A stretch of DNA of 41,739 nucleotides from Henriciella sp. (GTDB taxonomy: Bacteria; Pseudomonadota; Alphaproteobacteria; Caulobacterales; Hyphomonadaceae), in assembly GCA_027019605.1 (NCBI GenBank), contig JALUWJ010000201.1:1-41739 (forward strand), read 5' to 3'. The first letter of the stretch is position 1; every line of letters starts with the position of its first letter. The position numbers and the translations under genes were made by a program. This document shows positions 22,760 to 26,300 of the stretch, piece by piece. The notes beneath the pieces were generated by a model. It saw only the letters and a program-made list of their open reading frames with translations. It was not told where the DNA came from and did no database searches.

Positions 22760-23611
22760 ATGTCACTGCTCCAGCTGATTATCATTTCCCTTGTACAGGG
22801 CATCACCGAATGGCTCCCGATTTCCTCTTCGGGGCATGTGCTGCTTGCTGCCAACCTGTTTACCTTGGAAGGGCGGGACGAATTGCTGATCAATGCCGTC
22901 TCAAATTTGGGAACTCTTGCAGCGATGCTGATCTATTTCCGTAAAGACGTCGCTGCTGCAACGCTCGGCGGGTTTGAGCTGCTCGGCGCGGGGTTTCGAA
23001 AGGCACAATTGTCTCGCGGGGCCCATCTCGCGCTTTGCATCATTGTCGCGACCCCGATCGCCATCATCGCCGCGATTGCGCACGAAATGTTCGTTCCGGA
23101 CAGTATCCAGGCGCATCTCCGCAGTGTGTGGACCGTCGCTGGCGCCACCATCGGCTTTGGCCTGTTACTCTGGTGGGCGGATGTCGCGGGCGGCAAAGAC
23201 CGCACCGAAAAAGATATGACGCTCGGCCACGCAGTGATGATTGGCGCGACCCAAGCGATTGCCGCACTGATCCCTGGCACCAGCCGCTCTGGCATCACCA
23301 TGACCGCCGCGCGCGCACTTGGTTATGAACGCACAGAGGCGGCTCGTTTCTCCATGCTAATCGGCGCGCCCATTCTCGCAGCAGCAGGGCTCTACGGCGC
23401 AATCGGATTGCTGGACGCAGACACCGCAGGCGGCATTGTCACGCTGCGGGACGGAATGATCGTCGCCGCCCTCGCTTTCGTCTCTGGAATCGCCTCCATC
23501 CACGCCTTGATGACGCTTCTGAAACGAATGAGTTTCCTGCCCTTCGTCATCTATCGGCTTCTATTGGGCGCAGGCCTCATCCTCGCGGCACCCGTCTTGG
23601 GATTGATTTAA
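22760..23611 (+). CDS. uppP: Undecaprenyl-diphosphatase (UppP/BacA)
   Basis: This integral membrane enzyme dephosphorylates undecaprenyl diphosphate and so recycles the lipid carrier used for peptidoglycan and polysaccharide repeat units; overproduction gives bacitracin resistance. The 283 residues contain the two catalytic segments QGITEWLPISSSGH (13-26, Glu17) and PGTSRSG (172-178), and about eight hydrophobic helices. No strong ribosome binding site is visible (only GCGGAC before the ATG). It is divergent from gltD. The carrier it regenerates is needed by the Wzx/Wzy pathway encoded later in the window. Confidence 0.96.
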   Translation: MSLLQLIIISLVQGITEWLPISSSGHVLLAANLFTLEGRDELLINAVSNLGTLAAMLIYFRKDVAAATLGGFELLGAGFRKAQLSRGAHLALCIIVATPIAIIAAIAHEMFVPDSIQAHLRSVWTVAGATIGFGLLLWWADVAGGKDRTEKDMTLGHAVMIGATQAIAALIPGTSRSGITMTAARALGYERTEAARFSMLIGAPILAAAGLYGAIGLLDADTAGGIVTLRDGMIVAALAFVSGIASIHALMTLLKRMSFLPFVIYRLLLGAGLILAAPVLGLI

Positions 23612-23623
23612 AAGGGAAAAATT

Positions 23624-23649
23624 CTGTCCTGACACTTTTTTACTGGCGT
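23624..23649 (+). promoter_or_regulatory. Two-part upstream motif, copy 1
   Basis: CTGTCCTGACAC, seven bases, then CTGGCGT. The same pair with the same seven-base spacing occurs at 24583-24608 before the paralogous gene, and both copies lie about 80 bases before the start codon. TGTCC with CGT 17 bases on could be an extracytoplasmic-function sigma promoter; the first half is also close to a palindrome. Which reading is right cannot be told from sequence. Confidence 0.6.
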
Positions 23650-23730
23650 CTTGGCAGGATCCTCCTTTTATAGAGAGCGATATGTCGAAAAGTGCGGGCC
23701 ACTGGTCCAGCCAATCTGATCGAGTACGTG

Positions 23731-24543
23731 ATGAAGCGCCGAGAAAAGAAAAGCGAAAGCTTAGACATTCGTCTGCCATACCAACAGAAGCAAGACTTCA
23801 TGGCAGCCACAAAGCAACGAGGCGAAAGCGCCTCGGAAGCTCTGCGCCGCTACATCGCTGACTATATCGAGGAGGCTCGACTGGCCGAACAACCCCATCC
23901 GGTCCAGGAGATTACCATGACCCTCGCACGACATCGCTTTAAATCCCTCGCCACCGCGGCGGGCGCCGCCATTGGCGTGTTTTCCGTTACCGCCCTACCT
24001 TCAGCCGCCGACGCCACCGCCTTTGAGGCGCTCGACAAAAACAATGATGGCGTGCTCACAGAGGGCGAGATCGCTCCGGGCTATGATGCCGACATCATCA
24101 AAAAACTCGATACAGATGGCTCTGGCGGCGTCAGCCAGGCCGAGCTTGAAGCCGCTGGCAATCACATCGTCATCCATGACAGCGAGACCGCCTCTGAAGA
24201 GGACGGCCAGGAAGTAACCCGCAAGACGATGAAAGTCTTGAAGTTCAGCGACTCTGCAGATGGTGAAATCCACGGCGAGGTGACCACCGAAGTCGACAAG
24301 CGCATTACCATCAAACGCATGGGCGAGGGCGAAGAACTCTCTGAAGAAGAGCTGGAAGCCCTGATTCAGGAAGCGCTCGCCGAAGCCGGCGGCGAAGGCA
24401 ACATCGATATCGACCTCGATTTCGACACTGAGACGGTCTTCAAAGAATCCAGTGAGTCTGGCGACACGCGCATTATCGTCAAAAAGATAAAGCGCTCAGA
24501 AACGTCGACAAACTCAGAGACTGACACGGACGAGACCGAGTAG
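23731..24543 (+). CDS. RHH-like domain fused to a signal segment and an EF-hand domain
   Basis: From ATG 23731 the protein has 270 residues. Residues 9-50 (SESLDIRLPYQQKQDF, then SASEALRRYIADYIEE) look like a ribbon-helix-helix DNA-binding domain: one strand and two helices. Residues 63-95 are a complete signal-peptide-like stretch, starting with an internal Met63, basic residues and a hydrophobic core, and ending SAADATA. Two EF-hand loops follow: DKNNDGVLTEGE (102-113) and DTDGSGGVSQAE (127-138), with calcium ligands at the expected positions. The rest is very acidic. The internal ATG at 23917 has CAGGAG six bases upstream, so a second product, a plain secreted EF-hand protein, is plausible. 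The outer start has only a weak binding site. The next gene is a paralog. Confidence 0.75.
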   Translation: MKRREKKSESLDIRLPYQQKQDFMAATKQRGESASEALRRYIADYIEEARLAEQPHPVQEITMTLARHRFKSLATAAGAAIGVFSVTALPSAADATAFEALDKNNDGVLTEGEIAPGYDADIIKKLDTDGSGGVSQAELEAAGNHIVIHDSETASEEDGQEVTRKTMKVLKFSDSADGEIHGEVTTEVDKRITIKRMGEGEELSEEELEALIQEALAEAGGEGNIDIDLDFDTETVFKESSESGDTRIIVKKIKRSETSTNSETDTDETE

Positions 24544-24573
24544 AACACGGCCCGTTCGCCCCATCATAATAAG

Positions 24574-24628
24574 ACCGAAAGCCTGTCCGGACACGAAAAG
24601 TCTGGCGTATGAACGGGCTTTCGGTTTT
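24574..24628 (+). terminator. Terminator-like inverted repeat wrapped around motif copy 2
   Basis: ACCGAAAGCC (24574-24583) pairs perfectly with GGCTTTCGGT (24616-24625), followed by TTTT. The 32-base loop contains nearly the whole two-part motif of the next gene, including the palindrome TGTCCGGACA. It may terminate the EF-hand gene while the next promoter starts inside the loop. The long loop makes terminator function uncertain. Confidence 0.45.
24583..24608 (+). promoter_or_regulatory. Two-part upstream motif, copy 2
   Basis: CTGTCCGGACAC, seven bases, then CTGGCGT: 18 of the 19 fixed bases agree with copy 1 and the spacing is identical, while the seven-base spacer differs completely. In this copy TGTCCGGACA is a perfect 10-base palindrome. 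The start codon lies 75 bases downstream. Confidence 0.6.
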
Positions 24629-24683
24629 CACGCCCTCACGAAGCGGTCCTGATACGGGCACCGACGAACCTTCGGAGAGCGGC

Positions 24684-25289
24684 ATGACGAAACCACGCCC
24701 GGAAAAGAAGACTGAAATGATTGAAGTGCGCCTGCCGCACTCCAAGAAAGAAGCCTTCAAGCGCGCGTGTGAAGAAGAAGGGATCACGGTCAGCCATGCC
24801 GTGCGCACCTTTGTTGATGCTTATCTGCGCCGGTCTCGCCGGATGAAAGCCAAACGTATCGCAAAGGACATATCGATGACCCTCATCCGCAATCCCATCA
24901 AAACCACTGGCGGCCTCGGCGCCGCGCTTGCAGCCGCCTTTGGCGTGGTGGCCTTGTCAGCTTCGCCCAGTTTCGCCGACCGCGACACCCAGCCGATCGA
25001 ACCGCCAGTGCCTGACTATCCGATCGACCTTGCCAGCCAGGGCATTGGCGCCCATTGCGACAACTATTTCGATGTTAGTCCGGAAGGCTATGTCATCAAT
25101 CTAGAGGTTAAATGCGGACACCCCGGATTCGTCGCATCATCACGAAACGCAGTTTCCACGCTTCGGTTCGAACCCAAAATCGTCGACGGCGTCGCGGTTG
25201 TCCGGAAGGGCGTCGTCTATCCCGTCGTCTATTTCCTGCAGGATGAAGACGGGAATGACATTGCGTCCCTAATGTCTGAAAGCGGTTAA
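24684..25289 (+). CDS. RHH-like domain fused to a signal segment and a TonB-C-like domain
   Basis: From ATG 24684 (GGAG six bases upstream) the protein has 201 residues. Residues 10-50 (TEMIEVRLPHSKKEAF, then TVSHAVRTFVDAYLRR) are RHH-like. Residues 65-99 form a signal-peptide-like segment ending SFAD. Residues 111-186 resemble the C-terminal domain of TonB-type energy transducers (YPIDLASQG, GYVINLEVKCG, AVSTLRFEPKIVDG, VVYPVVYFLQ), with Cys125 and Cys144. Aligned without gaps to the first 60 matching residues of the upstream protein, 19 are identical. Internal Met65 (ATG 24876) has AAGGA seven bases upstream, at the same place as in the paralog. No proline-rich periplasmic spanner is present, so it is unlikely to be a true TonB. 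Confidence 0.75.
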   Translation: MTKPRPEKKTEMIEVRLPHSKKEAFKRACEEEGITVSHAVRTFVDAYLRRSRRMKAKRIAKDISMTLIRNPIKTTGGLGAALAAAFGVVALSASPSFADRDTQPIEPPVPDYPIDLASQGIGAHCDNYFDVSPEGYVINLEVKCGHPGFVASSRNAVSTLRFEPKIVDGVAVVRKGVVYPVVYFLQDEDGNDIASLMSESG

Positions 25290-25312
25290 AGCTTAAACCG
25301 CTTCAGACTTTT
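25274..25312. terminator. Shared hairpin terminator containing both stop codons
   Basis: GTCTGAAAGCGGTT (25274-25287) pairs with AACCGCTTCAGAC (25296-25308), 13 pairs with one bulged base and an 8-base loop, followed by TTTT on the plus strand. The stop codons of the two convergent genes both fall in or at the loop. Confidence 0.75.
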
Positions 25313-26300
25313 GATGATACTGCCCGTATGGGCGGAAGCGGTACAAGTAACTCGGCACAATCGCTTCGACCGTTTCGATTTGAGACACTCCGAGATCGTT
25401 CAGCGTCAAGGCATCGTCCGAGACAACATTATCAGACTTCAACATTTCGACTTGATCGCCGGTAATCGGCGGTGGGCCAAAAATTCCGGACGAAAGCGGC
25501 GGCACGTGCCGGAACAGCGCCCCAAAGGTCAGACCAAGCGGCTTTGCGACGAAGAAAGGTAACGGCAATGCGAATCGCTTTCGGTCAATCGTTTCGCCGA
25601 TAAACGCGTACAGCTCTTTGAACGTATAGACGTTCGGTCCACCCAGCTCATAAGTATTGCCAGCTGCATCACTCTTCGAAACGGCCGCGGCAATCGCGTC
25701 TGCAACGTCGCCCGCATAAACAGGCTGAACCTTGGTCTCGCCGCCACCAATCGCTGGTAGAAACGGAGCAACCGTTGAGATCGGGTGAGACGACATTGCC
25801 GCAAAGCGATTGAAGAAATCGTCCTCTGGGCCAAACACGATGGACGGGCGAAGGATCGTCGCTGTCGGCACGAGCTCGCGAATCGTCAACTCTGCCTCGC
25901 CCTTGGTTTTACCATAGTCGGCCGAGCTGTCTGTGTCCGCCCCAATGGCTGACACATGTACGAAACGGCCTATGCCCGCTGCTTTGCAAGCTTCCGCCAC
26001 GTTCTTAGCGCCGTCTCTCTGTGCGCCTTCAAAGCTCTGACGGCCTTTTTCGTAGAGAATGCCGACCAGGTTCACGACCGCATCGGCGCCATCAACAGCC
26101 GCGGCAACCGATTGCGGATTGCGGACATTCGCCTGAACGATATCGACCCAACCAGGAGCGCCAGCCAGACGAACATCGCCGGCAAGATGAGGGCGCCGAA
26201 CCGCAACACGAACCCGATAGCCTGCTTCGACAAGCGCTCGAGCCGCGTATCGGCCGATAAAGCCAGATCCGCCGAATAGTGCCACTAGACCTTTTGCCAT
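25293..26300 (-). CDS. NAD(P)-binding epimerase-like protein of the complex I NDUFA9 family
   Basis: The 335-residue protein is an atypical short-chain dehydrogenase. The N-terminal dinucleotide loop GGSGFIG is at 10-16, VVNLVGILYEKG follows near 77-88 and YGKTK provides the Tyr and Lys of the active-site pattern near 130-134. Its closest kind is the NDUFA9-type protein of alphaproteobacteria, related to a mitochondrial complex I accessory subunit that binds NADPH; in bacteria the role (quinone or lipid related) is not settled. AAAGGAG lies upstream of the ATG. It converges with the TonB-C-like gene and is divergent from the polysaccharide locus. Confidence 0.88.
   Translation of the reverse strand: MAKGLVALFGGSGFIGRYAARALVEAGYRVRVAVRRPHLAGDVRLAGAPGWVDIVQANVRNPQSVAAAVDGADAVVNLVGILYEKGRQSFEGAQRDGAKNVAEACKAAGIGRFVHVSAIGADTDSSADYGKTKGEAELTIRELVPTATILRPSIVFGPEDDFFNRFAAMSSHPISTVAPFLPAIGGGETKVQPVYAGDVADAIAAAVSKSDAAGNTYELGGPNVYTFKELYAFIGETIDRKRFALPLPFFVAKPLGLTFGALFRHVPPLSSGIFGPPPITGDQVEMLKSDNVVSDDALTLNDLGVSQIETVEAIVPSYLYRFRPYGQYHQKSEAV

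Follow-up and report, generated by a model that had tools for sequence, protein, structure and literature searches.

Genes A and B stand in tandem at 23624-25289 of the window, which is the whole 41,739-nt stretch of Henriciella sp. DNA analysed here (assembly GCA_027019605.1, contig JALUWJ010000201.1), between uppP and an epimerase-like gene. In each encoded protein an RHH domain leads through a linker into a cleavable-looking Sec signal, behind which lies the exported part, made of EF-hands in A and of a TonB C-terminal domain in B. The features are these, with the basis for each given last.

23625..23634, no strand: operator O1 of A, TGTCCTGACA; sequence, kept before A in relatives
23643..23671, + strand: putative promoter of A, -35 CTGGCG at 23643-23648 and -10 TTTTAT at 23666-23671; anchored consensus
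23647..23656, no strand: second half-site O2 of A, 22 bp on; 6/8 fixed bases, counted by eye
23731..24543, + strand: gene A, RHH - signal - EF-hand protein of 270 aa; ORF, Pfam
23743..23874, + strand: RHH domain of A; family profile, predicted model, A/B alignment
23906..23919, + strand: internal Shine-Dalgarno (AGGAG) and ATG of A; sequence, synonymous-recoding test
23917..24009, + strand: Sec-type signal of A, ending in PSAA; motif only, no signal predictor
24019..24156, + strand: EF-hand pair of A; Pfam
24584..24593, no strand: operator O1 of B, TGTCCGGACA; sole copy in the source genome (84% complete)
24602..24630, + strand: putative promoter of B, -35 CTGGCG at 24602-24607 and -10 TTTTCA at 24625-24630; anchored consensus
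24606..24615, no strand: place of O2 of B, weak; 4/8 fixed bases, counted by eye
24684..25289, + strand: gene B, RHH - signal - TonB_C protein of 201 aa; ORF, Pfam, model
24696..24833, + strand: RHH domain of B; family profile, model, structure alignment
24863..24878, + strand: internal Shine-Dalgarno (AAAGGA) and ATG of B; sequence, synonymous-recoding test
24876..24977, + strand: Sec-type signal of B, ending in PSFA; motif only, no signal predictor
25008..25226, + strand: TonB C-terminal domain of B; Pfam, structure alignment

Translation probably starts at ATG 23731 for A and at 24684 for B. In the case of B, the ATG at 24609 is passed over because it lies inside the putative B promoter, upstream of the B transcription start. 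Position 23624, where a first-pass annotation made from the letters of this DNA opened the pair, is the edge of an operator and not the start of a gene, although both ORFs are present as it claimed. Pfam matches EF-hand_7 in A (5.4e-8) and TonB_C in B (3.2e-7), and a structure alignment of the B model finds the TonB-CTD 2gsk at Z = 10.6. The EF-hand part of A also has a weak likeness to lanmodulin (NCBIfam E = 0.0037; Foldseek to 8fns, E = 0.067), and A could conceivably be specific for a metal other than calcium.

The N-termini of A and B are 23/70 identical without a gap (BLASTP E = 8e-14), which bears out the paralogous pair with RHH-like N-termini proposed by the first-pass annotation on 19 of 60 identities. 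The RHH fold that it also proposed is upheld by a family profile and by structure alignments of model B. Taken as single proteins, A and B score weakly in Pfam, all below curated cut-offs (A to RHH_1, E = 0.15; B to RelB, E = 7e-4, and to ParG, E = 0.0093), and RHH families in Pfam are matched by members of the family. The family profile scores against solved RHH chains at 1.2e-5 for DinJ 9lew, 8e-5 for ORF56 2k9i, 0.0035 for VapB26 and 0.013 for ParG. Residues 9-58 of model B align with AtaR, KacA, PutA, Arc and CopG at Z of 3.8 to 6.5, a range below 8 in which, by the tool's own warning, a match may reflect a common arrangement. Model B has helices at 19-32 and from 36 on, and is a single chain, as are all the predicted structures used here; model A is of low confidence, and a fold search with it gives no match at E <= 0.001. 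What is found is a strand-helix-helix domain with sequence kinship to known RHH proteins, as the RHH superfamily is defined.

A and B are members of an alphaproteobacterial family, delineated by sequence searches, in which the RHH is constant and the exported domains vary. The RHH-signal module of B is matched in 63/150 relatives and that of A in 62/150, and the family alignment matches 147/398 genomes of the order at E <= 1e-8, with no stops among the matches listed; many relatives keep the fusion of RHH to export signal, as they should if the first-pass annotation was right about it. Across the class, 32/385 genomes are matched at E 0.001, with only 4 (source genome included) below 1e-13, the matches above that value being mostly short RHH matches. 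Relatives among the best 80 of 187 include members of Henriciella, Hyphomonas, Ponticaulis, Parvularcula, Kordiimonas, Caulobacter, Phenylobacterium, Brevundimonas, Devosia, Aminobacter and Sphingomonas. Sorting the exported parts of 183 distinct proteins by an EF-hand loop pattern and a profile built in this analysis gives 134 with EF-hands, 12 with TonB, 2 with both, 30 with something other and 5 that are short or truncated, which supports the exchangeable exported domain that had been suggested. A hydrophobic segment follows the RHH in 178/183. In the subfamilies of A and B the RHH is the best conserved part: its mean column identity is 0.82 in B and 0.70 in A, and that of the mature part 0.62 and 0.50, respectively; RHH-free TonB-domain proteins are common in the same genomes.

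No conserved partner gene is seen, except that members in the Caulobacteraceae have signal peptidase I next to them. Among relatives in the Caulobacterales, the gene for the RHH-EF-hand protein is convergent, often 2 bp apart, with a neighbour gene (L135, L136, L139, L145, L154, L158, L161, L164, L166, L167, L171, L176, L178, L183), which in L164, the one locus checked, is signal peptidase I (TIGR02227, 2.9e-45). Gene B is apparently broken after the signal with an intact RHH in G002 (L009, frame lost) and in G006 (L006/L041, with a short 117-aa ORF in L006), and other degenerate members are L083, with an apparent frame loss past the RHH, and L099, with a TAG within the RHH.

The first-pass annotation pointed to a shared upstream motif, and there is one: TGTCNNGACAC occurs in the window only at 23625 and 24584, against an expectation of 0.22, and at least 2 copies occur in 5/100 shuffles. 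Upstream of family members the palindrome TGTCNNGACA is perfect in 117/184 and has one mismatch in 32 more, and dinucleotide shuffles of all 184 upstreams give a mean of 0.77 perfect palindromes with a maximum of 2. In 35/184 rows, many of them Caulobacteraceae, there is no site with <= 1 mismatch, and no common motif is seen there by eye. The 184-row set includes L203, a generic RHH protein of 92 aa whose palindrome centre is likewise AT; left out are ORFs with an off-pattern strand or less than 110 nt upstream, and duplicates, recognised by identical last 50 residues or an identical RHH segment.

Anchored on the palindrome, the family consensus reads TGTCCGGACACGatTTT.CTgGcGTCcGg.Cg, and a T-rich element follows at about +41 to +47. 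From it we infer CTGGCG as the -35 and the T-rich element 17 bp downstream as the -10; a sigma-70 consensus scan of 23500-25350 calls no promoter, neither the putative one of A nor that of B. A second half-site at +22 has a family mean of 4.11 of 8 fixed bases, the next best offset having 2.91. O1 and O2 lie on either side of the -35, which suits a repressor if the promoter reading is right.

Three loci with the strand KKTELIEFR (L088, L091, L094) carry GTGTGGGGACAC instead of the common palindrome, possibly a further specificity variant. A global regulon of TGTCCGGACA was considered and set aside, the count over 22 genomes being near background at 104 places versus 86 for the reversed-pattern control. 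At 40 loci of nine genomes, 34/42 of the TGTCCGGACA sites fall within ORFs of 90 aa or more, and one of these 34 is a module gene's own operator. The same genes have TGTCCGGACA in G028 and in the module-less G023 (L421/L433, L422/L432), and one of these shared genes has a longer AAATTTGTCCGGACAAATT-like palindrome, perhaps for another regulator; the sharing weighs against the reading favoured below.

The RHH probably reads its own promoter, because the palindrome centre covaries with strand residue X, the first outward strand residue, in K-S/T-E-X-L-E-V-R. With X = Lys the centre is AT in 15/15 rows, and with any other X in 1/151, a count over 166 rows, namely those whose site score is at least 8; L203 is left out, and the Lys row L082 is lost for want of a site. 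In the full 184-row set 16/17 Lys rows have the AT centre, L203 among them, and L082 is the row with no site. In a first set of 89, X carried the maximum possible information, and in 148 rows (L203 left out) it ranks first among 45 columns for three labels; for CG versus the rest, the E/D position scores the highest z. The number of independent events behind the covariation is small: Lys is gained 4 times on the best tree, where only one pair is on supported branches; it agrees, in a sign test that cannot reach significance, and the remaining Lys pairs in the table agree too unless the partner is L289, the sole exception. Residues 9-53 of model B align without a gap to Arc 6-50, so that X, E and R fall on the base-contacting Arc positions 9, 11 and 13. 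That the shared motif is recognised by the RHH, as first suggested, gains support from this covariation.

In the source genome TGTCCTGACA is found at eight places besides gene A, of which two are upstream of yajC-secD and rpoH; the others are outside ORFs of 100 aa (L100, L108) or inside ORFs (L103, L104, L107, L109). Upstream of rpoH, a perfect palindrome is at -197 to -203 in 10/10 genomes of the genus with gene A, and one is found in 1/15 without it (G010, at a different place and in a different flank). Upstream of yajC, the palindrome is at -148 to -152 in 9/9 gene-A genomes (5 perfect, 4 with one mismatch) and in 0/15 without gene A, a count that omits the gene-A genome G011, which has no yajC match. 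An identical 15-mer is common to rpoH and gene A of the source genome. Identity at the fixed positions is 100% for rpoH and 94% for yajC, against 71% and 77% at the remaining positions, and there are other equally conserved stretches in these upstreams, probably core promoters. The flanked pattern TGTCNNGACANKWWT has 40 matches in eight gene-A genomes versus 12 for the reversed control (4-7 versus 0-4 per genome), and in the source genome it is at four places, namely gene A, rpoH, yajC and one inside an ORF. Counted by hand, the rpoH and yajC palindromes start 28-29 bp before a CTTGAA-like hexamer, so they would sit near -60, a frequent position for activators. In the gene-A clade, the regions upstream of rpoH and yajC-secD are probably further binding targets for the RHH of A.

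The word clade is used because gene-A holders look like one by YajC identity (78-100% versus 61-69%), and the rpoH/yajC pattern is therefore within-clade conservation plus one co-occurrence, and may be one event. Elsewhere, the rpoH test covered 30 module-holder genomes, of which 2 have no match and a 28th locus begins inside rpoH; of the 27 testable, 0/27 have a perfect site and 3 have one with one mismatch, at differing places. In two gene-A genomes, G008 (L373) and G025 (L374), TGTCCGGACAAGTTT is near a glyoxalase-like lipoprotein gene (named by eye), a possible further target.

Most family members with a long linker have a candidate second start. With ATG alone considered, an internal ATG within 23 codons up to the hydrophobic core is found in 122/183 proteins, and a Shine-Dalgarno of at least 4 bases is present for 98/122 of these, compared with 48.9 +/- 4.8 (maximum 65 in 500 trials) after synonymous recoding. 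Among 78 representatives below 60% identity the figure is 42/52, versus 20.1 +/- 2.9 recoded with a maximum of 28, and control ATGs in mature parts have a Shine-Dalgarno in 65/405. The codons that spell it differ between subfamilies. The internal ATG is found in 47/60 representatives with a long linker and in 5/18 with a short one. Many family genes would probably yield a long RHH form and a short RHH-free plain preprotein.

The motif PxxA stands behind the hydrophobic core in 85/122 proteins with the internal Met and in 48/57 without it, against 12/134 control windows; the looser AxA is uninformative, with 75/134 in controls. The long form, where apparently the sole product, seems also built for cutting. 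Because PxxA is kept where the internal ATG is not found, a permanently attached sensor is less likely, and PxxA retention together with the RHH-free internal-start form fits the suggestion, made in passing by the first-pass annotation, that the RHH may be released on cleavage. Three things go beyond that annotation: the second start, the promoter geometry and the sites at rpoH and yajC.

Arc, CopG, RelB/DinJ, AtaR/TacA and PutA are like A and B in having an RHH fold and a palindromic operator at their own promoter, but in A and B the RHH precedes a Sec-type signal and an exported domain, and to our knowledge the known RHH autoregulators and antitoxins are cytoplasmic. For a comparison with type II antitoxins, no recurrent small partner is seen among neighbour ORFs of at least 90 aa. 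The DNA-binding domain of ToxR and CadC is a winged helix, and A and B have an RHH instead. CadC and ToxR share with A and B a DNA-binding domain inside, a membrane-entering segment and an outside domain in one chain; A and B differ by the RHH, the cleavable-looking signal and the internal start.

SecM, VemP, MifM and ApdP, which are themselves exported or inserted into the membrane, adjust Sec/YidC genes through a translation arrest that acts on the gene downstream, and PMC7897499 places ApdP upstream of secDF in alphaproteobacteria. The logic proposed below for A and B is similar to that of SecM, VemP and ApdP, except that A and B would act on transcription, with sites at unlinked genes; they are not directly upstream of a controlled Sec/YidC gene, yajC-secD and rpoH being on other contigs. 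Caulobacter CaBP, from a related order, is a periplasmic EF-hand protein whose signal peptide is reported at residues 1-21 (PMC13171946), which, in difference to A, leaves no room for a preceding RHH. B has the C-terminal TonB domain expected of TonB, and at its N-terminus stand an RHH and a cleavable-looking signal. Searches of open-licence literature listed no paper describing an RHH joined to a signal sequence together with EF-hands or a TonB domain.

We give about an even chance to each gene being an export-coupled autoregulator module, in effect an export monitor in the form of a transcription factor. The RHH domain would remain cytoplasmic, bound to the palindrome of its own promoter, and in this clade the A-type RHH would have extra sites upstream of rpoH and yajC-secD. 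The same chain would run from the RHH into the cleavable Sec signal and exported domain, and the start just ahead of the signal would supply an additional RHH-free exported form. With export working, the RHH would be pulled to the membrane on the signal-peptide stub and then removed; with export faltering, unexported RHH precursor would accumulate and reset not only its own gene but also those of the translocase and of the heat-shock sigma factor. The position of the RHH ahead of the signal peptide, together with the sites at its own, the translocase and the rpoH genes, suggests that the unexported cytoplasmic precursor is the signal. What the sequences themselves show is the fusion and its operator, the covariation of operator with RHH, an internal ribosome site and the conserved rpoH/yajC sites; the RHH as the binder, the direction of control, the cleavage and the signal that is read are what we infer. 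A sharper version, for which we would put the chance a little short of even, takes the RHH as the N-region of a cleavable signal peptide: every export event would cost one molecule of regulator, and the amount of precursor in the cytoplasm would inform its own gene, yajC-secDF and rpoH of the Sec capacity, with the nested start supplying exported protein independently. The monitor reading is not family-wide, because the perfect rpoH site is absent from all the testable module holders outside the gene-A clade.

The main rival of the export monitor is a tethered calcium sensor, uncleaved and membrane-spanning like ToxR or CadC, in which the exported EF-hand or TonB domain would respond to a periplasmic cue (calcium for A) and alter RHH dimerisation and DNA binding. 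The N-in/C-out layout with positive charge ahead of the hydrophobic core would suit it, as would a constant RHH with variable exported domains and the self-operator. However, the hydrophobic runs are of signal-peptide length, the cleavage motif persists in those 48/57 proteins without the internal Met, the internal start would yield a sensor domain with no RHH, and 30/183 exported parts are neither EF-hand nor TonB. We regard this rival as unlikely, if still a serious contender, and a sensor staying attached to its regulator, as the first-pass annotation had it, is less supported given that PxxA count and the RHH-free form. Plain autogenous control, by which the RHH holds the amount of exported protein constant with no sensing and rpoH and yajC are occasional extra targets, agrees with the own promoter being the only recurrent target outside the gene-A clade and with O1 and O2 flanking the putative -35; since it leaves unexplained both the RHH fusion ahead of an export signal and the conserved rpoH and yajC sites, we think it rather improbable.

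Another protein may use such a palindrome, because the module-less G023 shares TGTCCGGACA sites at other genes with a second genome, and on that ground one could suppose that some other transcription factor acts on TGTCNNGACA at all these promoters and the RHH has a different job. Against this, the palindrome centre tracks RHH residue X, and the rpoH/yajC sites are in gene-A holders and almost never in non-holders, which makes it very improbable. Scarcely credible to us is that only the short form is made and the RHH part is no more than a leader frame, untranslated or vestigial: the internal Shine-Dalgarno is well formed, as this would have it, but the RHH is the best conserved part, no stops are found among the order-wide matches listed, and the internal Met is missing in 57/179 members.

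The export monitors in the literature found (SecM, VemP, MifM, ApdP) use ribosome stalling, and an RHH in the signal peptide would, if true, be another solution to the problem that they solve. Such a design could link the capacity for export to the heat-shock sigma factor. Beyond this, the family provides a natural code for RHH-operator specificity, along with genes that would each have two nested products.
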